A DNA stretch of 33,691 bases from a bacterium (GTDB lineage: Bacteria; SZUA-79; Acidulodesulfobacterales; Acidulodesulfobacteraceae), in the NCBI GenBank assembly GCA_021813525.1, contig JAKAKK010000040.1, forward strand, positions 1 through 33,691, in the 5' to 3' direction. A program made the translations under genes and the position numbers. The notes under the pieces are model-generated. The model was not told the DNA's origin and searched no databases. It was given only the letters and a program-made list of their open reading frames with translations. This document shows positions 15,339 through 32,040 of the stretch, piece after piece; the stretch's first letter is position 1, and each line of letters opens with the position of its first letter.

Positions 15339-15415
15339 GGGCGGATAGCTCAGCCGGTTAGAGCATCGGCTTTACAAGCCGGGGGTCACAGGTTCGAACC
15401 CTGTTCCGCCTACCA
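15339..15415 (+). tRNA. tRNA-Val (anticodon UAC)
   Basis: A full 77-nt cloverleaf. The acceptor stem GGGCGGA pairs with TCCGCCT and the genome-encoded ACCA end is present. The D arm is GCTCAGCCGGTTAGAGC. The anticodon stem TCGGC/GCCGG holds the loop TTTACAA, so the anticodon is TAC. The T arm is ACAGGTTCGAACCCTGT. Its 3' part is the target of an integrated element; because the attL sequence is identical over the overlap, this copy remains complete. No separate promoter is obvious between the HU terminator and the gene. Confidence 0.95.
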
Positions 15416-15417
15416 TT
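15368..15417 (+). repeat. attL: 50-bp direct repeat at the tRNA-Val 3' end
   Basis: These 50 bases, from the anticodon stem through CCA plus TT, recur without a mismatch at 31991-32040. The flanking bases differ at both sides (C/T before, C/G after). A tRNA 3' end repeated at the far side of a block that starts with a tyrosine integrase is the standard signature of site-specific integration. Confidence 0.95.
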
Positions 15418-15545: not shown

Positions 15546-16586
15546 ATGTCAGATAAAATAAGACTCCGCGGCAAAATATGGCATTACGATATAACGATTG
15601 ATAATATCCGTTATCGCGGCAGCTGCCAAACAGAAGATAAAAACGAAGCAGAAAAAATCGCAAGCGCTATTAAAACCGACATTATCCGAAACAAGCACGA
15701 TATACCCACAAAAATCAATTATAACGATTATGATTTTAACGAACTTTGGGAAATGTATATACAATCCCAAGTTATAACTGAACGTGCGATAGAAAGAAAG
15801 ATAACAGCGCGAAAACATTTTGTGCAATTTAATAATAAATCTATTGGTAGTATAACCCGGGCGGATATTGAAAATTACCAGCTTAAAAGAAAATTAGAAA
15901 TAATTGCTATGCCTCGGAATCGGAATAAGCGGGAACAAGAAATATCATTCCGAACGGTAAATATTGAAACAAGCATACTCCATAACTTTTTTGAATTTTG
16001 CATTAATAAAGAATTAATAGATAAGAATCCTGCCGAAAAAATCAAGCAATTAAACGAATTATCCAGATTAAAAACCCTATCCGACGAAGATATCGAAAAG
16101 CTTATAGCCGCCGCTACAAATAAACTTACAAGAGACATCATTACATTTCTGATTTATACTGGCTGCCGGAAAGGCGAGGCCCTAAATCTTAAGTGGGACG
16201 ACGTGGACTTAAAAAACGACATAATAGCGATAAAAGGAACAAAAACAAAGTATGATAGATATATACCGATTAGCAAGCCCTTAAAAGCCCTTTTAAGCCG
16301 TATCGAAAAAAATCAGAACTGTTTATATGTATTTAATAGAAACGGAGTGAAATTGACCAATTTTAAGCGCTCCTTTCATACGGCTTGCAAAAACGCCGGA
16401 TTAAAAGATATACATATTCACGACTTAAGACATGTCTTCGCAAGCAAAATGGTTATGAACGGAACGTCGCTTTTTATAACCGGGGAGCTATTAGGACACC
16501 GAACAACCCAGATGACTAAGAGGTATTCTCATTTAGTTCCGGATACGTTAAGAAAAGCCGTTGACGACGTATTTTCTAAAAAATAA
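15546..16586 (+). CDS. int: Tyrosine-family integrase of the element
   Basis: A 346-residue phage-type integrase. The N-terminal part (about 1-60: GKIWHYDITIDNIRYRGSCQTEDKNEAEK) resembles the AP2-like arm-binding domain. A SAM-like core-binding domain (about 62-165) and the catalytic domain follow. The active site is complete: R208 (TGCRKGEAL), H292-x2-R295 (HDLRH), H318 (LGH) and the nucleophile Y327 (TKRYSH). It cuts and joins attP with attB in tRNA-Val. The upstream ATG at 15529 is in another frame and stops quickly, so 15546 is chosen, although no strong Shine-Dalgarno sequence is visible. The gene is oriented away from attL, about 130 bp inside it. Confidence 0.95.
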   Translation: MSDKIRLRGKIWHYDITIDNIRYRGSCQTEDKNEAEKIASAIKTDIIRNKHDIPTKINYNDYDFNELWEMYIQSQVITERAIERKITARKHFVQFNNKSIGSITRADIENYQLKRKLEIIAMPRNRNKREQEISFRTVNIETSILHNFFEFCINKELIDKNPAEKIKQLNELSRLKTLSDEDIEKLIAAATNKLTRDIITFLIYTGCRKGEALNLKWDDVDLKNDIIAIKGTKTKYDRYIPISKPLKALLSRIEKNQNCLYVFNRNGVKLTNFKRSFHTACKNAGLKDIHIHDLRHVFASKMVMNGTSLFITGELLGHRTTQMTKRYSHLVPDTLRKAVDDVFSKK

Positions 16587-16613
16587 GATAGACACAGCCC
16601 CCCTTCATATCCA

Positions 16614-16728
16614 TTGTGAATTTGTGAATTATCAATATTTTTATATTATATATATAGAATATATCTATATTTAAGATATATTAAATAATTCACAAAACAT
16701 ATGTGAATTAATGTGAATTGCGTGAATT
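16614..16728. repeat. Cluster of GTGAATT iteron-like repeats
   Basis: GTGAATT occurs at 16616, 16624, 16703, 16713 and 16722, and inverted (AATTCAC) at 16687. Close copies are 8-10 bp apart, around an AT-rich core of ATATAT runs. The first pair (16614-16633) has an exact 20-bp inverted counterpart at 31771-31790. The layout suits cooperative binding of a replication, excision or regulatory protein. Nothing codes for protein between 16587 and 17061. Confidence 0.5.
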
Positions 16729-16738
16729 ATTAAAAATA

Positions 16739-16787
16739 GGCGGTCAAAAAGAAAAAATCATATCATTTCTTTTTTTTCTTGGCCGCC
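16739..16787. terminator. Hairpin after the integrase, candidate terminator
   Basis: GGCGGTCAAAAAGAAAAAA (16739-16757) is a near-perfect inverted repeat of the arm ending CTTGGCCGCC at 16787. The A and T tracts lie inside the stem, so it could terminate transcription in both directions, but there is no long T-run after the plus-strand stem. Confidence 0.45.
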
Positions 16788-16858
16788 CTAACATATTAAA
16801 AAAAGCTTCTGAGACTATATAATATAATGAGTTAAAGGTATTTATTGTATTCATTTTT

Positions 16859-16896
16859 TAACCGTATCCTAAGGTCAAATTCGGTCAAATACCGTT
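16859..16896. repeat. GGTCAAAT repeat module, copy 1
   Basis: TAACCGTATCCTAAGGTCAAAT followed by a second TCGGTCAAAT and ACCGTT. The 22-bp head recurs at 27393-27415 and 27487-27509 with one base changed (CCTAAGG to CTTAAGG). The module contains direct repeats of GGTCAAAT about 10 bp apart. It lies about 170 bp before the RHH gene. Iteron or shared operator are both possible. Confidence 0.6.
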
Positions 16897-17027
16897 AAAA
16901 ATGTATGACAATATTGTGCACAAAGATGAATATTTATATAACTGTGTATAACTGCATATAACATATAATACAATAATTTAATGACATATTATAAATATAA
17001 TAAGTAAAAAAAAAATAAAAATAAAGG

Positions 17028-17055
17028 TTGACATATGTTTTTAATATGATACAAT
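17028..17055 (+). promoter_or_regulatory. Promoter of the RHH gene
   Basis: TTGACA at 17028-17033 and TACAAT at 17050-17055 are 16 nt apart. The ATG at 17062 begins only 7 nt after the -10, so transcription would start on or next to the start codon and the message may be leaderless. Confidence 0.55.
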
Positions 17056-17061
17056 GTAACT

Positions 17062-17253
17062 ATGACAACTACAAAAACAATTAAATCAGAACGAATGATG
17101 TTTAGACTTTCAAAAAACGAAAAAGAAACATTCGAGAAAATTATAAAAATACAAAATAAAAAAAAAGGTGAAATTTTACGGAATTATGTTCAAGGATATA
17201 TTAAGGCTTATTCGGATTTATTGATGAATAATAACAATAAAAACATTAAATAA
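17062..17253 (+). CDS. Small ribbon-helix-helix-like DNA-binding protein
   Basis: A 63-residue basic protein. The segment SERMMFRLSKNEKETFEKII followed by KKKGEILRNYVQGYI has the beta-strand/helix/helix rhythm of Arc/MetJ/CopG-type repressors: a short strand with alternating residues (MMFRLS), then two amphipathic helices. No database-level match can be claimed. It is a candidate copy-number, partition or transcription regulator of the element and stands between the first GGTCAAAT module and the excisionase-like gene. No Shine-Dalgarno sequence is seen before ATG 17062; an internal ATG at 17095 is the alternative start. Function is inferred from shape and context. Confidence 0.6.
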   Translation: MTTTKTIKSERMMFRLSKNEKETFEKIIKIQNKKKGEILRNYVQGYIKAYSDLLMNNNNKNIK

Positions 17254-17263
17254 AATTAATAGT

Positions 17264-17295
17264 GCGGTCAGTCTGATTGCAGTCGGACTGACCGC
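17264..17295. terminator. Strong hairpin after the RHH gene
   Basis: GCGGTCAGTC (17264-17273) and GACTGACCGC (17286-17295) pair perfectly. With G-T pairs the stem extends to 14 bp around a TGCA loop. No T-run follows, so it may act as an mRNA 3' stabiliser, a Rho-linked stop or a protein-binding palindrome rather than a classical terminator. Confidence 0.45.
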
Positions 17296-17430
17296 TTAAC
17301 AGTGTGTATTGGATATGAATAATATAACATCTTTATTCGTAATTGTCAATTATCGGCTAAAACCCGCAAAACCTGCGATACCGCTACTTCTACCGCTATC
17401 TTTTAATAATATATTGGGGGGTGTGTCATT

Positions 17431-17703
17431 ATGACTCAATCCATACAATCCCCATATTTATCTGTTTCGGAGGCGGCGGAATACATGCACATTTCAAAGT
17501 CTTATCTTCGCGCACTTGCTTATTCAAAAAAAATCAGACATTACAAAGTAGGCTCAAAGAGACTTTTCATTCTTGAAGATATCCAAGCGTTTCTCGATTC
17601 TTGTTCAATGCAACCAGACGATTCCAATAATTTCAGGAGAAAATATATAAATTTGCAAATAAATAATAGACGCATAAACATTATCAAAAAGGCGGTTTTA
17701 TGA
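17431..17703 (+). CDS. Excisionase-like helix-turn-helix protein
   Basis: A 90-residue protein. Residues 9-57 fit the HTH_17/excisionase (MerR-like winged helix) domain: YLSVSEAAEYMHISKSYLRAL for the helix-turn-helix and KVGSKRLFILEDIQAFL for the wing and last helix. The C-terminal 30 residues are basic (KYINLQINNRRINIIKK). In integrated elements such proteins bend att DNA and direct the integrase towards excision, or regulate int. The start is preceded by an unusual GGGGGGTGTGTC sequence that can serve as ribosome site and recurs elsewhere in the element. It is about 850 bp from int and not overlapping it. Confidence 0.8.
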   Translation: MTQSIQSPYLSVSEAAEYMHISKSYLRALAYSKKIRHYKVGSKRLFILEDIQAFLDSCSMQPDDSNNFRRKYINLQINNRRINIIKKAVL

Positions 17704-17934: not shown

Positions 17935-19350
17935 ATGATTAATATATCGCAAAATAACGAAAATGTCAATAATAATTTCAAAATTGTTAATAAAAACAAA
18001 AACAATAAGGATGAAGGCGTTTTCTGCCCAATTACTATGAAAAAAGATAATTGCGAGTTAGCAAATAATTCCGAAAGATTTTGCAATAAAAATATTAAAG
18101 ATAAAATAAATTGTGCAAAGATATTTCGTGAAAATGGCTATAATAATAAGGTAAATATTTATGGCCTTATTCCTCACGAAAGTTTTTTATATCATTTCGT
18201 TAAGTATTGCAATAATATGACGGACGCGCCTGATAGTTTTGGTTATGCAACAGGATTAGTTATTCTATCTACTGTTGTCCAACGAAATATTTTTATTTTT
18301 TGGACAGGTCGAAAACTTTACGCTAATCTTTATGTTTTGCTCATTGCAAAGTCTGGCGGAAGAAAAGGCACAACCTTGGGACTTGCAAAACAATTGCTCA
18401 ATAAACTTGAGGAAAATAATACTGACAATTTTCTTGTTTTTCCGGACGACATAACGCCTGAGAGCTTATTTTCGCTAACTCAAAATCAAACCCATGGGAC
18501 TTTTTTTCATGGCGAATTTGGTGGATTTTTAAAGGGCCTTGATAGAAGTTACAATAAAGGATTAAAAGAGCTCTTAACGGATATTTTCGACAATTTCTCC
18601 CATAAAAAATTTATCAAAGGAAAAGAAGGAACAGGAGAAATGTTCGAATTAGTTGAACCGGCGATTAATATTTTGGGCGCCTCGACGGTTGCTTGGCTTT
18701 CGGAAAATTTAAAAGAATCGGATTTTAAGAGTGGTTTTATGCAGCGTTTTGTTTTTTTTCCGGGAGAATTGGATAAAAAAGAAATTGCTTTACCGGTTAA
18801 ATCGATCACTTCAATTAATGATGACATTATCGATAACTTATATTCAATGCTTTCGGAGATTTCGGGAATATCTGGCGAAATTGTTTTATCTAAGGATGCA
18901 ATTCAAGCTTATGAATCTTTCTACTACTCTGATGAGGAATTTAAAAAAAGACAATCTGAAGTTTACGGTAGCTTCCATACTCGACTTTATACGTTTGTCA
19001 TTAAACTTTCGATGTTATATTGTGCGATGAGAATGGATAAAACAATTTCAAAAGAAGACATTGAATATGGAATAAAAGCAAAATTATTAGTTGAGACTCA
19101 ACTTTATAGCGTATTTGACAGACTATTAAGTAATGATGTTCAGGATAGGCTCGAAAAAATTAAAAATATAATTGCAGAAAATGGCGGAATAATAGATAGA
19201 AGTAAATTATTACGTTATAGTCATATGCTTGCTAAGGATTTTGATAATTATATTATGACATTAGAAGAGAATGGAACAATATTTAAAAAGACTGAAACAA
19301 AAACAAATAAAACCAAACCAACAATTCATTATTGTTTAGTGGACGCGTAA
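17935..19350 (+). CDS. DUF3987-type helicase-like protein
   Basis: A 471-residue protein. Residues 80-400 follow the DUF3987 pattern found in plasmid and phage primase-helicase proteins: FATGLVILSTVVQRNIFI-like core (about 103-121), a phosphate-loop-like LLIAKSGGRKGTT (135-147), GTFFHGEFGGFL, EPAINILGASTVAWL and FKSGFMQRFVFFPGE. The loop is atypical for Walker A. The N-terminal 60 residues are Asn/Lys-rich and carry four evenly spaced cysteines (C31, C40, C50, C60), perhaps a zinc site. A likely role is replicative helicase of the element, working with the RepB-like primase at 28098. Base composition is clearly AT-richer than the tra genes that follow. It ends 17 bp before traH. Confidence 0.72.
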   Translation: MINISQNNENVNNNFKIVNKNKNNKDEGVFCPITMKKDNCELANNSERFCNKNIKDKINCAKIFRENGYNNKVNIYGLIPHESFLYHFVKYCNNMTDAPDSFGYATGLVILSTVVQRNIFIFWTGRKLYANLYVLLIAKSGGRKGTTLGLAKQLLNKLEENNTDNFLVFPDDITPESLFSLTQNQTHGTFFHGEFGGFLKGLDRSYNKGLKELLTDIFDNFSHKKFIKGKEGTGEMFELVEPAINILGASTVAWLSENLKESDFKSGFMQRFVFFPGELDKKEIALPVKSITSINDDIIDNLYSMLSEISGISGEIVLSKDAIQAYESFYYSDEEFKKRQSEVYGSFHTRLYTFVIKLSMLYCAMRMDKTISKEDIEYGIKAKLLVETQLYSVFDRLLSNDVQDRLEKIKNIIAENGGIIDRSKLLRYSHMLAKDFDNYIMTLEENGTIFKKTETKTNKTKPTIHYCLVDA

Positions 19351-19367
19351 TTAGGAAGGAGGTTATT

Positions 19368-20870
19368 ATGAAACTTAAAATTTCTACTGTTGTAGATATA
19401 ATTATCGCTCTTTTTATATTTTTCGCGGTATCGTCTTTTGCCGTCAAAAGTGCTTCCGCCGATATGTCCTCTTTTTTATCTACGGTAGTATCGCAGGCGC
19501 AGAATCTTGCTCCACAGGCGTATCAAGCCCAGCAAAGGGGATTTTTCGTTGGCGGTTCGATGACTATACCGCCTCAGGGAGTATCGCTTCAACCTATATC
19601 GTTTACTCCCCCTTCGCTTTCCATGAACGGCTGCGGGGCTATCAACCTGACTATGGGCGGATTTTCCTATATGAATCCACAATACTTGATGCAGAAACTT
19701 CAGGGCATAATTCAAATGGCGCCGTCATTCGCTCTTGAAATAGCCATTAAGATTTTATCCGAACAGGCCGGAAACGTAATGAATTTTCTCGAGCATATGT
19801 CGGATTTTATAAACAGCTTAAACGTTAATTCTTGTCATGCTATGTCCACTATAGCGGCAAACATCCTGCCAAGCTCTATGGATACCAAACTCGGTATCGA
19901 AAAAGACAATGCAGCGGCGTCGCAAGCTAACGGCGGCTCGGGCTGGTTCGGAGGAGTAACCGCCGCTTATAGCAACGCCGGTTCTGCTCTTTCTAACTGG
20001 TGGGCTAATACCGCTCCGCCTTCAGGGCAGAGCCTCGTAGATTTCGAGGACGAAAACTGCGCGATTGCTAACGGTGCGTCCGGGGTTTTACGAACCGCCG
20101 CAAATAGTGTAAATATGGGTTCTATCCCGCCGGATTTTATCGACTTCATAAGGGCTTATGTGGGAGATGTGGTTCCTGCTTCAAATTCTAACGTGCAGAA
20201 TGGATGTTACACTTCTATCGTTTACCTTTCCGGACCTATTTCAATTACTGAACTGCAAAAAGATTTTTCGGCCGGTGGGAGTATCGAAGAAATATCGGGG
20301 ACGGGATTAGCGAGTGGCGGTCAGCCTACCGCCGTTCCGTTCACGTCCTTTCAAACGCAGGTTGAGGCAACATTGCAGGATATTTTAAATAATTTACAGC
20401 CCGGTATCGGTAACGGTTCGCTATCAACGGGCGATATACAACTCATAAATGAATCGAGCATTCCTCTTTATCCGTTCCTGAAAAACGCCGTTCTTGTGAA
20501 TAATTCCGCTGCAGCAGGTTCTATTATCGAGGAACTATCTAAACCGGTTGCGATTAATATTGCGTATAACATTCTAACGAACTACATTCATCAGGTTGGA
20601 ATAATGCTGACATACGAAGAAAGCAATTTACAGCAGGGAACTCTTTCCCCTGGTTCTACCGGAGGGGTCGGAGCCATTAAGGAATTACTGAATAATCTGT
20701 TAATAGCCCAAAGAGAAATATACCAGACTTATTATATTTCACTCACTAAAATGCAAGAAAGCGAGGGTAATTTCAGTTCTCAATATGCAGAATTACAAAA
20801 CGAGGTCAATAACGAACTTAAAAAAACCGGCTACGGAGAATATCTGTCCAAAATAAACGGCGGAATGTGA
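19368..20870 (+). CDS. traH: TraH, F-type conjugative pilus assembly protein
   Basis: A 500-residue exported protein. The signal peptide covers 1-31 with an ASA cleavage site. The TraH hallmarks follow: RGFFVGGSMTIPP, NGCGAINLTMGGFSYMN, QKLQGIIQMAPSFALEIAIKI, NSCHAMSTIAANI, and later NGCYTSIVYLSG. Family role: TraH is a periplasmic/outer-membrane associated component of F-type T4SS needed for pilus assembly and mating-pair stabilisation. The start ATG 19368 has a strong AGGAAGGAGG ribosome site; a TTG at 19332 would overlap the previous gene and lengthen the signal peptide unnaturally. It heads the traH-x-x-traU-traG row. TraH is one of the subunits that SGI1 also carries. Confidence 0.9.
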   Translation: MKLKISTVVDIIIALFIFFAVSSFAVKSASADMSSFLSTVVSQAQNLAPQAYQAQQRGFFVGGSMTIPPQGVSLQPISFTPPSLSMNGCGAINLTMGGFSYMNPQYLMQKLQGIIQMAPSFALEIAIKILSEQAGNVMNFLEHMSDFINSLNVNSCHAMSTIAANILPSSMDTKLGIEKDNAAASQANGGSGWFGGVTAAYSNAGSALSNWWANTAPPSGQSLVDFEDENCAIANGASGVLRTAANSVNMGSIPPDFIDFIRAYVGDVVPASNSNVQNGCYTSIVYLSGPISITELQKDFSAGGSIEEISGTGLASGGQPTAVPFTSFQTQVEATLQDILNNLQPGIGNGSLSTGDIQLINESSIPLYPFLKNAVLVNNSAAAGSIIEELSKPVAINIAYNILTNYIHQVGIMLTYEESNLQQGTLSPGSTGGVGAIKELLNNLLIAQREIYQTYYISLTKMQESEGNFSSQYAELQNEVNNELKKTGYGEYLSKINGGM

Positions 20871-21772: not shown

Positions 21773-22822
21773 ATGTTTAAAAAATCCTTATTTATATTAA
21801 TATTTTTCGTTTTTATATTTCTCGGTTCAGTAAACAGTTCTTACGCTCTGTCCGCAGGTTGCGACGCTTCCCCCGCATCGTTAATTCAGATATTAACCGA
21901 ATCGCTTACGACTTTATATAATATATTTCCTATTCAGGTCGGTAACGTAAACATAATGCCGTTTGGCACTCCAAACGCTGGCGAATCTGACGTTGAATCA
22001 GCCAGTTGCGATGCAGTTCCTGTATGCGAGTGCTTAACTCCAGTTCCCCGCATCGGTATTCATGTCGCTTTCTGGGAGCCGGTATTCGATATCGAAACCG
22101 TTAAATCTCCTTTCTGCTTTCCGGCTTTAGGCGTAAGCCTTGCCGGAGTTTCATCTTTTTTTAATCCCGGCAGGAATGCTTCTATGGGTAACGGGCGGGA
22201 AGGAGTAGCGGCTAATATCCATTTAATAGATTATCCCGTATTCGCTCTGGCGCAGATAGCCTTGACGGGCGATTCCTGTCCCGACGGATTAGAATCGGCT
22301 TTGAACGTTAGTTATATTTCCGAATTAGACCCCACTTGGAAAGACGACGAAACATCGGTTATTCTTAATCCTGAATCTTTGCTCGTCGCAAATCCTATAG
22401 CTCAGCTTGCCTGTATAGCCGATTCCGTCGCTTCCTCGGTGGGATATCCGATAGACGCTTTATTCTGGTGTCAGGGCGATTGGGGCAATACTTATCCTCA
22501 GAGCGCGGAGAAAGGGAGCGAAGGGCTTGTATCCGGCGCATGGGGTCTTGCTTCGCGCGGGCTTTTTAAAGCCTGCACCGTTCCGCTATTTTTGTTGTGG
22601 GATACTACTTCATGCGACGCTGAATGCGGACCGTTACCCCTGCCTATGTGGAAAAAATCGCAGTTCGGCATATACGAGGCGTTTCCAAGCCTCTGGCCTT
22701 TTAGAACGGCTATAGGGCAGACGGGAATGGTATGGGATCACGCCATGAATCCGCCGATACCTTTAAACGACGATAATTTCGATTTTTTCGTATATCAGCA
22801 TATAAACTGCTGTTTATTATGA
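21773..22822 (+). CDS. traU: TraU, F-type conjugation mating-pore protein
   Basis: A 349-residue exported protein. The signal peptide is 1-25 (SSYA). Diagnostic TraU features are CECLTPVPRIGIHVAFWEP, DYPVFALAQIALTG, NPIAQLACIADSVASSVGYPIDALFWCQGDWGNTYP, LPLPMWKKSQFGIY and PSLWPFRTAIGQT. It is rich in cysteine, as the family is, implying periplasmic disulfides. Family role: TraU is a periplasmic protein essential for DNA transfer but less so for pilus formation. Length equals that of known TraU. It is followed directly by traG (17 bp). Confidence 0.93.
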   Translation: MFKKSLFILIFFVFIFLGSVNSSYALSAGCDASPASLIQILTESLTTLYNIFPIQVGNVNIMPFGTPNAGESDVESASCDAVPVCECLTPVPRIGIHVAFWEPVFDIETVKSPFCFPALGVSLAGVSSFFNPGRNASMGNGREGVAANIHLIDYPVFALAQIALTGDSCPDGLESALNVSYISELDPTWKDDETSVILNPESLLVANPIAQLACIADSVASSVGYPIDALFWCQGDWGNTYPQSAEKGSEGLVSGAWGLASRGLFKACTVPLFLLWDTTSCDAECGPLPLPMWKKSQFGIYEAFPSLWPFRTAIGQTGMVWDHAMNPPIPLNDDNFDFFVYQHINCCLL

Positions 22823-22839: not shown

Positions 22840-25800
22840 ATGCCTTTACAAATTACAACCTACGGAAACGGTCCGATAATAACCGGCATATTGCAAGGTA
22901 TTGCCAATATCACGTCATCATCGGATTATTCGCTTATGGTTTCGTCTATTCTGGCTATCGGTATTGTTTTAGGTATTTTTGGATATCATAAGTCCTTGCA
23001 TCAGGCTGGTTCCGCCGCTCACGGCGAATGGATTCCGAAAGTCGTTGCAAGTCTTGCAATTTTCTGGATGCTTACAGGCGCAAGTTTAAACGTATTTGTC
23101 TATGACCCTCTAAATTCTTATACGGGCGTGGCAAAGAACGTTCCGTTAGGTATAGCCGTACCCTATTATTTACAAAACCAGATTTCAGAAAATCTCTCGA
23201 CTTTGTATGGCGAATGGCTCGCTCCGTCGGGTTACGCATCTGAATTTTCATACGACAACCCGAATAACGGCGCCGGATTTTATAATCCGGGCATGGCTTC
23301 GCCGCTTCAGGCAATTAACGAGGCTATGAAAGCTAATCCCCCAGATATGTATTTTCAAGAAACTATGACCGGTTTCGGTAAGGATTGCATGGTTCCTGCC
23401 CTACTCCTCGGCGTAGTTAATCCAAACGACCTTTACGCTTCGTCCGACATAGAGGATTTAATATCTACCGATATGCCTAATTTGCCCCAGGCGTGGACTA
23501 CCGAGATTTACAGTTCCTCAAGCCCCGGCGGAACGACTTATCCATGCTCTCAGGCTTGGACGGGATTTATTAAACCCGATATCGATAATTTTTCCGGACA
23601 ATCTTCGGGGTCTAACGGTTCGCTTAATAATGTCTTCGCTGACAAGTTTAATACCGCTACAAACTCAAGCCAGAACGCATTGGCCGATACGCTTCTTTTA
23701 GGTAACGCAGCAAGTTATATGTTTAACTTATCCATTACAGGACAACAAATGTTAGCGCAGGCGGCCATGATGAACTCGATAGGCAAAGGCATTATGCAGT
23801 TTTCGGAATCTACCGGCACGTCCAGCACCGCACAGGGTTACGCTCTTACGCAAGCTATGAGCCAGTCGCAGAGTTCGTGGACTACGTCCGCCATAATGGC
23901 ATCGAAAATGCTTCCGATATTTCATTTAATAATGGAGGTTATCGTAATAGCCTTATTCCCGTTATTTTTTGCCTTAGCCGTTATCCCTACGATGACCGGC
24001 AAATATTTAAAGCTGTTATTCGAACTTCTTATGTGGCTCGCTATGTGGAGTCCCATAGCGTCTATTCTTAACTATGCCGTTAATTCCTATATACAGGCTA
24101 AAGTTTTTGTGAATATAAGTAATCCCTTATCCGGCACGGCGGGTTTTAATCTTGCCAACTACAACTTTATCGCGCAGAACTCTTATATCTACACCGCCGT
24201 TACCGGCGCTATGATGTGGATGATACCCGTGCTTAGTTTCGGTCTCGTTACCGGTTCCGCTTACGTCATATCCGGAGCGATATCCGCCGCGCAGGGAACG
24301 GCGCACGGAGCCGCTCAACAGCAGGGCGCGCAGACGGGAACGTCAAGCGGGTTGCAGGGAATAGGCTCTCAGGCGGGAAGCCTTGCCGGTATGCAGTCGG
24401 AAGAGAAACAGGGCTATAATCCCGCCGCCGCGGCGGAAAAAATTGCGGGAATGGGAGCTTTGGATAATCTATCTAACGCTTCCGCTTTCGGAAATAACTT
24501 GCAGACGAACGGCTTGCAGAATATGATAAACGCTAAAACCAATAATATGGCCTCAACATTAGGCTCAGGCAATGCTTATTCATCGCCGCAACAGGCGTAT
24601 CAGACTGGTATGAACTCGACATTCGATAAACTTGCCCAACAGGGAATAACTAATGATTGGGCAAAAATGGCGGGAATAAATTATTCGGAAGCCGCTAACC
24701 AACTTGCCCAAGGAAAAGGTTTTGACGTATCGGGTATGTATGAAATGGGCAAAAACGGACCTATAAAAATATCCGATAATGGACATACGCATTTTACTCT
24801 TAATCCTGATGGTAAAGGTATTCTTGCTTCGGCTACAGGGCAAAGGACTTTAGACGGACAACAGGTAAAAACCGATATATTATCCGACAAAAACGGAATA
24901 TCCATGCAAGTTTACAAAGGAGAGCATTTAGAAAGTATCTCTGCAACGGGGAATATGGCATTATCGTCTATTCATAACGATACTCCTCTCGGACAAGTTA
25001 TAGGTAATTCTTTTGACGGCAAATATTCCGAAGGCGGTGGTAAGTTTGAACTTAATGGAATTTTAAATAAAGCGCAGGCGCAGAGATTAATTGATAGCGG
25101 TCTTATTAAAGGTCAGGCATCCGCCGAATTACAGAGCACTATAAACTCCGGCGAACAGTCATTTAATATCGTTGCAACCGGAAATAAAAACAGCATAACC
25201 GGACTCGACATTACCAATAAGCAAGGGGCTACTATCGCCACCGACGGGAATATGAGTAATCTAATGAAAGTTGCCACTGGATATAGTGGTCGCAGCGGTT
25301 ACGACCAGAAAAATTATCATGGCGTCGTAGAAAATAAATACGGTCCGAGTTATGATTACGGCAATGTGGCAACTTCAGGACTTGCCGGATATATTGCGTC
25401 TAAAGTGGGAACGCCCATAAGCGAGTTCATGGATAAAAACAGCATTGCCCAGTATAACAACGGTTTGGTGTCCAAAAGCGGGGGGCAAGTTCAATATACT
25501 CGCTCTCAGATAATAGACGCGGGGGCAAAGGTTTTCGGGCAATCGTTTAAACAATCGACCGGTTCTATGACGCAACTCGCAGGAGAACTCGGCATTGCAT
25601 TTAAAAATGAAACCGAACTCGGCTTTAAGATTTTCGGAAGCGGCGACAAAGCAAAAATAGAGGTTACGGCAGGCGGTAAGATTGTAGGATCAATTGATCA
25701 AAGAGACTTATCAGAAGCGTCTATAGATTTATACAAGCAGAAAGCGTATGATAGTTTTGCGAAATATAATCCTACTACAGTTCAGCAGGCAAAAGGATTA

Positions 25801-25956
25801 CTTCTTGCAAATCAAGCAGGCGCGAACGTGACTATGCTTACAAGCGCCGAAGGAATAATAAAAAGAATGTTAAGTGAAAAAGGTAACTTGCCTAGTGGCG
25901 AAAAAGGAGAGACCCCTTATGTAGCAGGACGTTTTGGTCCGATTCCTAAAAATTAA
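22840..25956 (+). CDS. traG: TraG, F-type mating-pair stabilisation protein
   Basis: A 1038-residue inner-membrane protein. The TraG N-domain begins ITTYGNGPIITGILQGIANI, with membrane segments near 36-52, 68-88, 358-385, 390-412 and 455-485. A large region after about 490 is soluble, rich in Gly, Ala, Gln, Asn and Ser and full of short repeats typical of TraG C-domains. Family role: the N-part is needed for pilus assembly; the C-part acts in mating-pair stabilisation and, in F, in entry exclusion by contacting TraS of the recipient. It is slightly longer than F TraG. In SGI1 a TraG variant replaces the helper plasmid's subunit and helps evade exclusion. The gene overlaps the next, convergent gene by 4 bp. 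Confidence 0.9.
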   Translation: MPLQITTYGNGPIITGILQGIANITSSSDYSLMVSSILAIGIVLGIFGYHKSLHQAGSAAHGEWIPKVVASLAIFWMLTGASLNVFVYDPLNSYTGVAKNVPLGIAVPYYLQNQISENLSTLYGEWLAPSGYASEFSYDNPNNGAGFYNPGMASPLQAINEAMKANPPDMYFQETMTGFGKDCMVPALLLGVVNPNDLYASSDIEDLISTDMPNLPQAWTTEIYSSSSPGGTTYPCSQAWTGFIKPDIDNFSGQSSGSNGSLNNVFADKFNTATNSSQNALADTLLLGNAASYMFNLSITGQQMLAQAAMMNSIGKGIMQFSESTGTSSTAQGYALTQAMSQSQSSWTTSAIMASKMLPIFHLIMEVIVIALFPLFFALAVIPTMTGKYLKLLFELLMWLAMWSPIASILNYAVNSYIQAKVFVNISNPLSGTAGFNLANYNFIAQNSYIYTAVTGAMMWMIPVLSFGLVTGSAYVISGAISAAQGTAHGAAQQQGAQTGTSSGLQGIGSQAGSLAGMQSEEKQGYNPAAAAEKIAGMGALDNLSNASAFGNNLQTNGLQNMINAKTNNMASTLGSGNAYSSPQQAYQTGMNSTFDKLAQQGITNDWAKMAGINYSEAANQLAQGKGFDVSGMYEMGKNGPIKISDNGHTHFTLNPDGKGILASATGQRTLDGQQVKTDILSDKNGISMQVYKGEHLESISATGNMALSSIHNDTPLGQVIGNSFDGKYSEGGGKFELNGILNKAQAQRLIDSGLIKGQASAELQSTINSGEQSFNIVATGNKNSITGLDITNKQGATIATDGNMSNLMKVATGYSGRSGYDQKNYHGVVENKYGPSYDYGNVATSGLAGYIASKVGTPISEFMDKNSIAQYNNGLVSKSGGQVQYTRSQIIDAGAKVFGQSFKQSTGSMTQLAGELGIAFKNETELGFKIFGSGDKAKIEVTAGGKIVGSIDQRDLSEASIDLYKQKAYDSFAKYNPTTVQQAKGLLLANQAGANVTMLTSAEGIIKRMLSEKGNLPSGEKGETPYVAGRFGPIPKN

Positions 25957-27245: not shown

Positions 27246-27392
27246 TAAAGAAATTGCTTAAGCTTGCCATTTTCGGCAAGCCCATTCCCCTAACTTGACA
27301 AATATAAAATATAACGTTAAATAATCCACATTTTTTTACATTTAATATTTATCAATAACTCCAATATTTTAGCCGATTAAAAGTTAATTTGC

Positions 27393-27545
27393 ATAACCGT
27401 ATCTTAAGGTCAAATACCGTCTTAATTCGGTCAAACTCAGTCAAATGCCGTTTATTTTTGTGTTATTTAATTTTTTTAGACGCTATATAACCGTATCTTA
27501 AGGTCAAATTCGGTCAAACAAGGTAATAATTCGGTCAAATGCGGT
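27393..27545. repeat. GGTCAAAT repeat modules, copies 2 and 3 (iteron-like)
   Basis: The 23 bases beginning ATAACCGTATCTTAAGGTCAA occur at 27393-27415 and again, identical, at 27487-27509. Each is followed by more TTCGGTCAAA and GTCAAATGCSGT units spaced by 10-22 bp. Together with the copy at 16859 they form a family of imperfect direct repeats. The surrounding 850-bp gap (27246-28097) has no credible gene, is AT-rich, and leads to the primase. These are features of an iteron-type replication origin; a set of activator boxes is the alternative. Confidence 0.55.
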
Positions 27546-28097: not shown

Positions 28098-28850
28098 ATG
28101 TCAGAAATCTATCAGATTCTAAGCCTATACAAATCAATTCAACTTTGCTTGATAAACGAAAAAGGACGTATTCTCCTGAATTTCGCTACTTGTTTAGACG
28201 ATATTGATTTTAAAAGGCTTACAAAAAGAAATCTTAATAATGGAATTTATTTTATGCCGGCGGTCGAATCTAATGTTTTATTTTTAGACGATTTGACGGC
28301 AATAGATGTAATTCCTTATCGTTCAATTATAGTGCAAACAAGCTCAAAAAAGTTCCAGGCACATATTTTTATTGATAAAATTATGTCTGCCGAACAAAGA
28401 ACAAAGTTGCAGCGTATTTTGGTTAGGCGATTTAATGCTGATGTTGGGGCGACGTCGGGAATGCAACCAAGACGTCTGCCCGAATTCACAAATCAGAAAT
28501 ATCCAGAACGACCGTTAGTGAAGATTGCTAAAAATACAATAGCTAATTCTAATGTGCCTGTTCTTGATATTTCGAAAATAATTTGTGAAGAACCTAAAGT
28601 AAGTCAGCCTACTTATTTACCAAAACCAAACTACTCAAAAAAATCAAAATCTTGGAACGACTTTTTTACCGGCGACGCTTCGAGCGCAGACATGAGGTAT
28701 GTTTTATATCTCTGCCGGCAGGGTTGGACGGATGAAGCTATTAAAGCTCAACTTCTCTTAGAAAGTAATAATCTTTATAAGAGAAAATCCGGACATGTCG
28801 AAGATTATCTCGATCGTACAATTTTAAAGGCTCGTTCTTATTTCGTTTAA
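28098..28850 (+). CDS. RepB-like DNA primase
   Basis: A 250-residue protein. Residues 48-135 match the RepB-like/archaeo-eukaryotic primase pattern of mobile elements: VLFLDDLTA (60-68, acidic metal-binding pair), YRSIIVQTSSKKFQAHIFI (74-92), RRFNADVGAT and RRLPEFTNQKYPER (125-138). The last part (about 190-250) has a helical primase C-terminal look (SSADMRYVLYLCRQGWTDEAIKAQLL). It would make primers for replication of the element or of the transferred strand. A GGGAGG ribosome site precedes the ATG. It is over 9 kb away from the DUF3987 helicase-like gene, although the two kinds of protein often act together. Confidence 0.78.
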   Translation: MSEIYQILSLYKSIQLCLINEKGRILLNFATCLDDIDFKRLTKRNLNNGIYFMPAVESNVLFLDDLTAIDVIPYRSIIVQTSSKKFQAHIFIDKIMSAEQRTKLQRILVRRFNADVGATSGMQPRRLPEFTNQKYPERPLVKIAKNTIANSNVPVLDISKIICEEPKVSQPTYLPKPNYSKKSKSWNDFFTGDASSADMRYVLYLCRQGWTDEAIKAQLLLESNNLYKRKSGHVEDYLDRTILKARSYFV

Positions 28851-29489
28851 AGGTTGTGTTTGGCTTTTTTCCGCTGCCGGAAGAAAGACAAGCACAACCC
28901 CCTTCCTAAAATAAAAATCCGCCGGAGTTTTTTACGCCGAAGCGCGTAAAAAACGGAGCAAGGATTTTTCCTCCCCCCACGGTAATCTTGCAACGTCCCT
29001 TCAGTATAAGCAAAGAAGTTGCGTCATTTTTTTTGACAAAAAAAAATGAATACTGAAGGGGCGGGCGAAAACCGCTAAAAAGATTAACATCTCAAAAAAA
29101 ATTGAAAAAATGACAGGCAAAAAGTATTAGTGAGAGCGTTAATACTGCCGTAAAAAAATCAAAAACAGACGTCAAACTTTCGCCTGTTTTCATGTCTTAT
29201 TGTGGCGCATTACAAATTTTCGACACCTCTTTTTATTTTTTTGACCGCGCCACGAAGGTGTCTAAGGTTCTACTTGACCGAGTAGTATCCTAATCTAAAG
29301 TTACGGTCACTAAAGCTCTTGCACCATCGGGGTTACAAAGTTCCCATTTTAAAAACTTTTACGAACTGATATTTTTGCTCAGATTGGGCTTGCTACACTA
29401 CAATCTCCGGGGGCGATCCGGTATAAAGGCGCAGATGATAGGGTTGCGTTTACAATAAACGAAACAACAAAATTGGAGGGCAAATAATA
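28851..29489. other. Hairpin-rich non-coding region, candidate oriT or regulatory RNA
   Basis: The 639-bp gap between the primase and the second recombinase has no credible gene. It contains a 22-bp imperfect stem at 28852-28899; a stem AAAAATCC/GGATTTTT enclosing an 11-bp perfect stem at 28913-28969; a 14-bp stem CGTCCCTTCAGTAT / ATACTGAAGGGGCG at 28994-29063, with a competing GCAAC/GTTGC pairing; AGTATTA/TAATACT at 29123-29146; and two interleaved 7-bp pairs at 29202-29262 that make a pseudoknot order. The density of strong inverted repeats directly before a recombinase-like protein fits an origin of transfer. A structured RNA is the other option. Confidence 0.5.
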
Positions 29490-30443
29490 ATGTCTTTGAA
29501 AAATAATTTACGTTTTTACGCTGGGCAAGTTTCTAACAGACTTGAAGACCCGATGAAAGTATTATCCGAAAAATCAAAATTTAATATCCGAAGCGAGAGT
29601 GTTTCCATCGCTGAAGATTTTAAGCGCGCTGGGGTAAAAACCAAACTTGTTAAACAGTTAAATTTAGAAGATTTTAAAAAGGTTGCAGAATATTGGAAAT
29701 CTAAGGGCTATACAGCAGGAACAATGCAAAATAAGGCTTCAGCATTACGCGCGATTTGCAATGCGGCAGGAAACGAAAATATAAAAAATATAAATAACGG
29801 TGAACTCGGTATTGTGTCAAGGAATGTTCTGAATCCAAATAACCTAAACGGAGCAGCCGTTATATCCGAAAAATCGCTTAAAAAAATCAAAAATCCCGAG
29901 GTTTCAGCTGCTTTGCGCCTCGAAGCCGCTTACGGACTCCGCCGAGAAGAATCGGCTCACGTTGTTTTCGAATTGACGAAGGGGCATGTAGTCACAGCCC
30001 CCGGAAAAGAAAATATTCTAACGATGAAAGGAAGCTGGTGTAAAAACGGCCGCCAAAGAGGAAAAATCACATTCAACGGAAGGCCGAACGGGGAATTGAT
30101 TTTACGCGACGGCGGGGCGCTATTAAAGCAGGTTGCTGAATCCGTTAAAGGAATACGTATTGATTATCGCGTTGAGCAATTTCAGCGGAAAATAAATTAT
30201 GCGGCCGACAAATGCAAAAAATTGGACAATAACCCCGATATACATCCTCATGCTTTAAGGCATAATTATGCGCATGAGCGGTATCACGAAATAACCGGCA
30301 GGGATTGTCCTGCTGCTGGAGGTATAAAATATTCCGAGATGAGTTCTAAAGAGCAGAAACAATATCATTCTGCCGCAAAAATAATCTCGGAAGAACTGGG
30401 GCATAGCCGGGAAACGATAAGCAGGACATATATTGGAAAATAA
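29490..30443 (+). CDS. Second tyrosine recombinase, possible MpsA-like mobilization protein
   Basis: A 317-residue protein unlike the integrase at the left end. The N-terminal half (1-115) is a SAM-like DNA-binding region (AEYWKSKGYTAGTMQNKASALRAIC). The catalytic half has R151/R152 (YGLRREES), H254-x2-R257 (HPHALRHNYAHERY), H305 (LGHSRETI) and Y314 (SRTYIG), so the active site is complete. The C-terminus ends three residues after the tyrosine, shorter than in typical integrases. It fits the family annotated as integrase-domain proteins on plasmids and islands. SGI1's MpsA, an atypical relaxase related to tyrosine recombinases, is the attractive parallel because no other relaxase exists here and a hairpin-rich region precedes it. 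A GGAGGG ribosome site supports the start. Confidence 0.85.
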   Translation: MSLKNNLRFYAGQVSNRLEDPMKVLSEKSKFNIRSESVSIAEDFKRAGVKTKLVKQLNLEDFKKVAEYWKSKGYTAGTMQNKASALRAICNAAGNENIKNINNGELGIVSRNVLNPNNLNGAAVISEKSLKKIKNPEVSAALRLEAAYGLRREESAHVVFELTKGHVVTAPGKENILTMKGSWCKNGRQRGKITFNGRPNGELILRDGGALLKQVAESVKGIRIDYRVEQFQRKINYAADKCKKLDNNPDIHPHALRHNYAHERYHEITGRDCPAAGGIKYSEMSSKEQKQYHSAAKIISEELGHSRETISRTYIGK

Positions 30444-30447
30444 GGTA

Positions 30448-30479
30448 AATAGACACTAAACTTTTCAATTAGGTCTATT
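30448..30479. terminator. Convergent terminator between the second recombinase and the secreted protein
   Basis: AATAGAC-A-CTAA (30448-30459) pairs with TTAG-GTCTATT (30469-30479), an 11-bp stem with one bulge and a CTTTTCAA-like loop. It lies exactly between two converging genes. T-runs are weak. Confidence 0.45.
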
Positions 30480-30764
30480 ATCTATGAGCCAGCTCGTCTT
30501 TAATGCTGTTTTTATGCCTTTAAGACATTGTTCAATTAAATAGTTCTGATTTTTTTGACTCATTTTTTTTGCGGCAGCCTGGCAAAATGGAAATATCGTA
30601 TTAACATAAACTCCTTTATACCATGCTTCTTTCCATCCTATGACATATATTTTAGCGCCTAATTTTTTCAAATTATTAGTTTTATGATTATTTCCGGCAT
30701 AAGCCATTGTCGGTATCGAAACAAACATAACTACGAACGATAAGATTATAACGAACTTATTCAT
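30465..30764 (-). CDS. Unknown small exported protein
   Basis: A 99-residue protein with a clear signal peptide (1-23: MNKFVIILSFVVMFVSIPTMAYA, cleavage AYA before GN). The mature part of about 76 residues is basic, with aromatic residues (GWKEAWYKGVYVNTIFPF) and two cysteines (FCQAA, EQCLKG) that could pair. Not recognised. A strong AAAGGAGG ribosome site precedes the ATG at 30764. It is convergent with the second recombinase. As an element-encoded periplasmic protein it could belong to transfer, exclusion or a host-interaction function; the sequence does not tell which. Confidence 0.6.
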   Translation of the reverse strand: MNKFVIILSFVVMFVSIPTMAYAGNNHKTNNLKKLGAKIYVIGWKEAWYKGVYVNTIFPFCQAAAKKMSQKNQNYLIEQCLKGIKTALKTSWLIDNRPN

Positions 30765-31016: not shown

Positions 31017-31205
31017 ATGATACAAGTTTTAATTAAAAATAACGACCTTGCCGGAAAATACGTGGCATTGAAAAGTTTTGAAGACTCTACGGTAATCGGT
31101 TCAGGCGACAGCCCAAAAGAAGCATACGATGAAGCGCAAAGAGAGGGACATAAAGAACCCGTCATTACGTATATTCCAGTTAAAGATATGGTGCAGATTT
31201 ACTGA
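31017..31205 (+). CDS. DUF5678-family small protein
   Basis: A 62-residue protein with the DUF5678 pattern: NNDLAGKYVALKSFEDSTVIGSGDSPKEAYDEAQREGHKEPVI, that is a GKYVA strand, a SG-x2-P-x-EA turn and helix, and a terminal strand with a YIP motif. The family is small, cytoplasmic and of unknown function. Its stop overlaps the start of the next gene by one base (TGATG), so the two are translationally coupled. Small DUF5678 proteins next to retropepsin-like proteases recur in bacterial genomes as far as I recall, which suggests that they work as a pair. Confidence 0.75.
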   Translation: MIQVLIKNNDLAGKYVALKSFEDSTVIGSGDSPKEAYDEAQREGHKEPVITYIPVKDMVQIY

Positions 31206-31606
31206 TGACTGCTGCCGAAATTCCTTTTACAAAATTTAACGATAACGATATAGCCCGGCCATGGCTGCCGGTTACAATTCATAATCCGCATACAAAACTA
31301 TCCATAAAAGTATATGGCTTAATCGATACGGGCGCAGATGAATGCGCTATTCCGGCAGAATACGCTCCGCTGCTCGGTCATAATTTGCAAGCCGGTATCC
31401 GCAAAACAATTAGCACCGGCAATGGCGCAACTACCGCTTATGCGCATACATTATGCTTTAAAACCGACAGCATAGAAATAAACGACGTATTAATAGATTT
31501 TATGCCAAACTTGCACGTCGTATTATTGGGAGTTAAAAGTTTTCTAAGCAACTTTATTCTTACTGTTAATTATAAAAATTCCACTTTTAGCTTGAATAAA
31601 CCTTAA
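31205..31606 (+). CDS. Retropepsin-like aspartic protease
   Basis: A 133-residue clan-AA aspartic protease fold of about the size of one retropepsin subunit. The active-site loop is LIDTGADECAIP (D41-T42-G43, strands IKVYG before it). The flap region is rich in Gly, Thr and Asn (ISTGNGATTAY), and the second conserved psi-loop is VVLLGVKSFL. It should act as a homodimer in the cytoplasm, as no signal peptide is seen. The substrate is unknown. The start overlaps the stop of the DUF5678 gene. This pair lies at the far right end of the element, a usual place for accessory cargo. Confidence 0.8.
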   Translation: MTAAEIPFTKFNDNDIARPWLPVTIHNPHTKLSIKVYGLIDTGADECAIPAEYAPLLGHNLQAGIRKTISTGNGATTAYAHTLCFKTDSIEINDVLIDFMPNLHVVLLGVKSFLSNFILTVNYKNSTFSLNKP

Positions 31607-31990: not shown

Positions 31991-32040
31991 GGCTTTACAA
32001 GCCGGGGGTCACAGGTTCGAACCCTGTTCCGCCTACCATT
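31991..32040 (+). repeat. attR: 50-bp repeat of the tRNA-Val 3' half
   Basis: Exact repeat of 15368-15417, from the anticodon stem through CCATT. The 5' half of a tRNA is missing in front of it (the preceding bases TATGGTGTTT do not form a D arm), so this is the attachment-site remnant and not a second tRNA gene. Confidence 0.95.

Follow-up and report, generated by a model that had tools for sequence, protein, structure and literature searches.

How does a genomic island that encodes parts of a conjugation apparatus and lacks a classical relaxase start its transfer to another cell? The island in question, of ~16.6 kb, lies complete within the window, the stretch of 33,691 nucleotides analysed here, and its two att repeats are 16,623 bp apart, which is the length of the element (Table 1). 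No classical relaxase was found when its larger ORFs were scanned with Pfam and NCBIfam profiles (a few ORFs shorter than 90 aa lay outside the scan), in agreement with the initial annotation, which had proposed that a second tyrosine recombinase, TR2, and the DNA preceding its gene form an oriT and relaxase module resembling MpsA of SGI1. The element also encodes a DUF3987 protein, and the ORF after TR2 (30465-30764, opposite strand) has a signal-peptide-like start. A single-domain retroviral-type aspartyl protease (clan AA) is encoded near attR (window 31205-31606), and a PADLOC search found nothing. Iteron-like repeats of the form CCGTATCYTAAGGTCAAA...CGGTCAAA are located near the DUF3987 and RepB-primase genes (window 16839-16900, 27374-27435 and 27468-27529), on the basis of which the excised element, like SGI1, may replicate.

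Table 1. Features of the integrative element and of the TR2 locus (window coordinates)
Feature	Position	Strand	Remarks
attL	15368..15417	+	3' end of tRNA-Val(tac), 50-bp direct repeat
Element integrase, Phage_integrase	15546..16586	+	PF00589; adjoins attL
HTH_17 / excisionase-like protein	17431..17703	+	profile match
TraH (F-type mating pair formation)	19332..20870	+	PF06122, E 2.7e-51
TraU	21773..22822	+	PF06834, E 3.6e-62
TraG N-terminal domain protein	22840..25956	+	PF07916, E 2.1e-59
RepB-type primase (RepB_primase + RepB_primase_C)	28098..28850	+	profile match; abuts non-coding region
Non-coding region, candidate oriT and possible structured RNA	28851..29489	+	between primase and TR2; blocks conserved in relatives
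Conserved covarying hairpin, candidate oriT core	28994..29063	+	arms CGTCCCTTCAGTAT / ATACTGAAGGGGCG
Second conserved non-coding block, GGGTTA-N-TTCCC...TTTACGAA	29330..29365	+	common to G018, G019, G020, G023, G026
TR2, tyrosine-recombinase-like putative relaxase, Y314	29490..30443	+	intact 317-aa ORF
attR	31991..32040	+	perfect copy of attL 50-bp repeat

TR2 contains the complete RK(H)R(H)Y catalytic set of a tyrosine recombinase (R151, K185, H254, R257, H305 and Y314), and, as initially described, the protein ends right after its nucleophile, with three residues beyond Y314. It matches Phage_int_SAM_2 (PF12834) at residues 40-97 with 23.5 bits against a cut-off of 22 and falls 0.9 bit short of the cut-off for Integrase_1 (PF12835; 22.1 bits against 23), and its homologue on pSIO1 lies far above both cut-offs. 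Judged by these profiles, TR2 is a member of the Integrase_1/Phage_int_SAM_2 group, the proteins of which are direct homologues with 27–34% identity over most of their length. The distinction drawn earlier between TR2 and the integrase of the element, which belongs to PF00589, was borne out: the two stand apart in the tree, where long branches make the placement only indicative. The HxxR arginine and the tyrosine nucleophile are 57 residues apart in 37 of the 41 members measured (alignment A4) and 32 apart in the integrase, as read from its sequence. The AlphaFold2 model of TR2 is confident (pLDDT 90) and predicts a full two-domain recombinase fold closest to Tn1549 Int, XerH and Cre, which together with an integron integrase (2a3v) are its best PDB matches. 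Integration does not require TR2, for the element carries att sites and an integrase of its own.

Within the host family, TR2 copies are present in G008, G018, G019, G023 and G026 (47–53% identical), with fragments elsewhere, and a classical relaxase was not observed next to any of them; G023 and G026 retain the order of primase, ~620 bp of non-coding DNA and TR2. The wider family comprises 446 candidate loci in GTDB genomes and 112–266 plasmid records, depending on the search, and MOB-suite typed 180 of the 266 plasmid records as non-mobilizable. The Integrase_1 homologues have the same catalytic set and 57-residue spacing as TR2, and in most loci the same hairpin upstream. At many chromosomal loci the TR2 homologue adjoins a true integrase, as would be expected for mobilizable elements that borrow the coupling protein of a helper, and on the small plasmids integration functions are not evident. 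The viral contigs that were scanned contained no relatives of TR2.

The 639-bp gap preceding TR2 contains no ORF longer than 48 aa and is rich in inverted repeats, its folding energy reaching z = -5.7 relative to dinucleotide shuffles. The initial annotation was correct in describing this richness, but richness in itself is not special, as another intergenic region of the element (16587-17430; z = -5.3) is equally structured, and we therefore rejected general hairpin or palindrome content as evidence. What is special is one hairpin, located about 430–490 nt upstream of the TR2 start, for which DNA folding gives z = -7.7. At eight host-family loci, this hairpin (CTTMAGTAT...ATACTGAAG or a variant) is situated 240–490 nt upstream of TR2, where its inner stem pairs are held by compensatory changes and an A-G mismatch recurs at one position. 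A search of 61 genomes for the exact host-family pattern gave four occurrences, all situated just 5' of TR2.

A hairpin linked to TR2 is also observed in the wider family across Proteobacteria. An unbiased inverted-repeat search of 700-nt flanks returned repeats with a shuffle p <= 0.05 upstream of 49 of 95 TR2 genes versus downstream of 20 of 93, and the upstream repeats share the core CGTCACT(A/G)...(T/C)AGTGACG. The strict form of this hairpin is present within 1.5 kb upstream at 49 of 83 loci, with 51 copies in 117 kb upstream of TR2 compared with 5 in 788 kb elsewhere (~68-fold enrichment), and a relaxed scan recovered it in 14 of 30 remaining upstream regions but in none of 30 downstream regions. 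Together, the two scans place the hairpin at 63 of 83 wider-family loci, 130–1150 nt upstream of TR2, and about a quarter of the loci, including L053 and L135, which are linked to a coupling-protein (T4CP) gene, have no recognisable copy. The 3' arm AGTGAC is intact in 13 of the 14 relaxed copies, pointing to this arm as the one that is recognised, whereas the 5' arm is variable, often where the window's group has its A-G mismatch. We note that many loci (L072, L073, L083, L096, L097 and L117) contain a further half-arm, AAGTGACG or close to it, ~45 nt 3' of the hairpin, which is possibly a second binding site or a nic marker.

As variable loops defeated MAFFT, the hairpin arms were aligned instead of whole hairpins, and pairs were counted on 29 diverse sequences. 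The family-wide stem is paired in 96% of cells, both partners have changed at eight of its 12 pairs, and covariation is seen at every outer pair. Double-sided changes number 93 where 25 are expected, and the covariation score of 0.703 compares with 0.147 for shuffled controls and no more than 0.18 on sliding, indicating that the stem is selected as a stem. The loop ranges from 2 to 38 nt, and the wobble pairs on the coding strand comprise 11 G-T and no A-C, a count that is only indicative as the sequences are related and non-independent. The variable loop and the G-T-only wobbles suggest that the hairpin acts as a folded single strand.

The family is also linked to transfer genes. A gene for a T4SS coupling protein is located near a TR2 homologue in six separate lineages, directly after it or past one short ORF in pSIO1, A. 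johnsonii, Pleionea and L135, and a few genes away in the others; this linkage was counted as separate lineages, and the groups in the tree set T4CP-linked TR2 against integrases only. At most chromosomal homologues, no T4CP gene is close by. A relative and a canonical relaxase occur together on two alphaproteobacterial plasmids and one Klebsiella ICE, with a MOBQ relaxase in L027 and L054 and a TraI-domain protein in L189, so that TR2 is not always the sole relaxase candidate. Apart from the element's own TraH, no helper T4SS was detected in the 86%-complete assembly. The host genome has a MOBF gene, and F-type conjugation clusters (L153, L160) and MOBF relaxases occur elsewhere in the genus, which makes helpers plausible. 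The two clusters, which lie in sister genomes, appear near-complete and are possible helpers.

On this comparative evidence, we consider it fairly likely that TR2 is a relaxase of the tyrosine-recombinase type whose oriT includes the hairpin, by analogy with MpsA in SGI1, and the pair probably starts conjugative transfer. The element would then be an integrative mobilizable element (IME) that exploits an F-type (MPF_F) helper. Its own integrase would first excise it, and TR2, acting as relaxase at an oriT within the non-coding region, would recognise the hairpin upstream of its gene. Tyrosine recombinases join DNA through a 3'-phosphotyrosine link, and TR2 would form such a link through Tyr314 on cutting one strand near the hairpin. 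The strand would be exported by the coupling protein and T4SS of the helper, modified by the element's TraH, TraU and TraG, while the RepB-type primase encoded alongside may provide primers for the new strand.

The main rival to a role in transfer is that TR2 and the hairpin form a multimer-resolution or single-site recombination system, comparable to Xer/dif, Cre/loxP or TnpI, which keeps plasmids and excised elements monomeric. Such a system would account for the complete active site and for the two-domain fold nearest to Tn1549 Int, XerH and Cre, and it would suit the single site seen in most complete small-plasmid records examined as well as the presence of TR2 on plasmids and possibly replicating IMEs, where multimers matter. 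However, the core sites of recombinases need a fixed overlap of 6–8 bp, and arms that lie 2–38 nt apart do not fit an ordinary double-stranded core site of fixed spacing. Conservation, moreover, covers the pairing of the stem and not the arm sequence alone, the site is separated from the TR2 gene by 130–1150 nt that include conserved non-coding DNA, and the coupling-protein linkage also speaks for transfer. We consider the resolution system unlikely.

Two further explanations turn on what else the non-coding region might do. RepB' of RSF1010 uses single-strand initiation (ssi) sites, and the hairpins could be such sites for the upstream RepB-type primase, in which case TR2 would be an accessory recombinase or have no part in the process; the primase gene lies immediately before the hairpin region in the window, G023 and G026, and the iteron-like repeats suggest that the element replicates. 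Yet the hairpin is kept in G008 and G018, where a primase was not detected next to TR2, and at dozens of primase-less loci, so that it tracks TR2 rather than the primase, and we regard this function as very improbable. Alternatively, the region may make a structured RNA that controls or assists TR2, the hairpin being part of this RNA rather than of a DNA nic region. SGI1 requires an RNA of this kind, the sgm-sRNA (PMC9299015), and the conserved and structured non-coding stretch that separates hairpin from gene, the wobble asymmetry in favour of the coding strand, and G-U-preserving and compensatory changes in a second recombinase subfamily would agree with it. The oriT hairpins of SGI1, however, lie outside its sRNA core, the only Rfam matches above threshold were tRNAs, none of them in the region, which also has no site resembling a terminator and matches promoters only weakly. 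Although compatible with TR2 being a relaxase, this reading of the hairpin appears highly improbable.

The second subfamily just mentioned occurs in the same hosts and is about 35% identical (L044:8108-9752, with relatives in L037, L039, L041, L045, L046 and L047). A perfect hairpin, CTTCAGTTTG...CAAACTGAAG, lies 590–750 nt upstream of its recombinase genes and is followed by ~700 nt of non-coding DNA that is highly conserved and appears to be structured; this is a candidate for a new structured RNA. A third, more distant type is encoded by small V. parahaemolyticus and Aeromonas plasmids (L187, L188), with a conserved upstream hairpin CGCTATGT...ACATAGCG; the L188 recombinase has no match to the Integrase_1 profile, and L187, typed non-mobilizable, bears the genes qnrVC5 and dfrA31. 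In the Klebsiella ICE, which has the TraI-domain gene, the hairpin GCGTCACTTG/CAAGTGACGC is located ~510 nt upstream of the gene for its Integrase_1 protein.

More tentatively, we propose that Integrase_1-type proteins and their upstream CGTCACT...AGTGACG hairpins constitute a class of conjugation origins that is widespread on small plasmids and IMEs of many Proteobacteria and has so far gone unrecognised; in this class, a full-length two-domain tyrosine recombinase would serve as relaxase and recognise a folded single strand whose 3' arm is invariant. Many plasmids and islands held to be non-mobilizable would then be mobile, and mobility predictions would change for many small plasmids, some with resistance genes. 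Family members are annotated as 'phage integrase N-terminal domain-containing protein', that is, as prophage integrases, and these genes would have to be reinterpreted, for instance the neighbour of mcr-4.3 in Shewanella. A text search of the literature found PF12835 proteins nowhere named as relaxases. They have been counted among the nucleases in relaxase-less conjugative elements (PMC11104534), and one such protein was called a phage integrase and read as mobilizing mcr-4.3, with relaxase function unmentioned (PMC9769806). A family of hundreds with a recognisable cognate hairpin would provide a signature by which transfer origins of this kind could be found in sequence data.

The comparison with SGI1 that was drawn at the outset is upheld in architecture. 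In SGI1, oriT lies upstream of mpsA, the gene of a recombinase-type relaxase, with an essential sRNA between them, and TraG and TraH serve with the helper apparatus (PMC6414798, PMC9299015). TR2 and MpsA are both tyrosine-recombinase-like, of 317 and 321 aa, with the nucleophile two to three residues from the end, and XerH and Cre were reported as best templates for MpsA too (PMC6414798). Both loci have a hairpin-bearing region 5' of the recombinase gene with a non-coding stretch between, and both elements, the present one by proposal, are helper-dependent IMEs with an integrase, traG and traH and no classical relaxase. The family-wide TR2-linked hairpin and the coupling-protein genes add to this likeness, whereas the coexistence of some relatives with canonical relaxases detracts from it, as do the absence of an MpsB-like gene after TR2 and the presence in TR2 of its own PF12834 core-binding domain. 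In addition, the HxxR-Tyr spacing is 57 in TR2 versus 69 in MpsA (from published positions), the proteins being likened by description and not by sequence; the att site is at tRNA-Val rather than trmE, dusA or yicC as in the SGI1 family; and the element also has traU. SGI1 was not recognised among plasmid matches to the TR2-family consensus (tblastn), nor among the matches listed in a search of E. coli genomes with the traG sequence of IncC, where most of the 126 records were IncC plasmids, and SGI1 junction primers matched nothing.

The literature found describes three proven or proposed recombinase-type relaxases, MpsA, MobK and TcpM, said to be without significant mutual similarity. TR2 shares the tyrosine-recombinase catalytic domain with MobK of pIGRK and TcpM of pCW3, which act as relaxases at an oriT upstream of their genes, but unlike all three it retains the N-terminal core-binding domain that is reported absent from them, a comparison made by description only (PMC8152469). 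In SGI1, every attempt to map the nic site was unsuccessful, and the TR2 family would give a comparative handle on this site and a testable model substrate. Integron integrases are tyrosine recombinases that act on a folded attC hairpin with unpaired bases. Their likeness to TR2, which includes the fold match to 2a3v, is one of principle only, as sequence and context differ.
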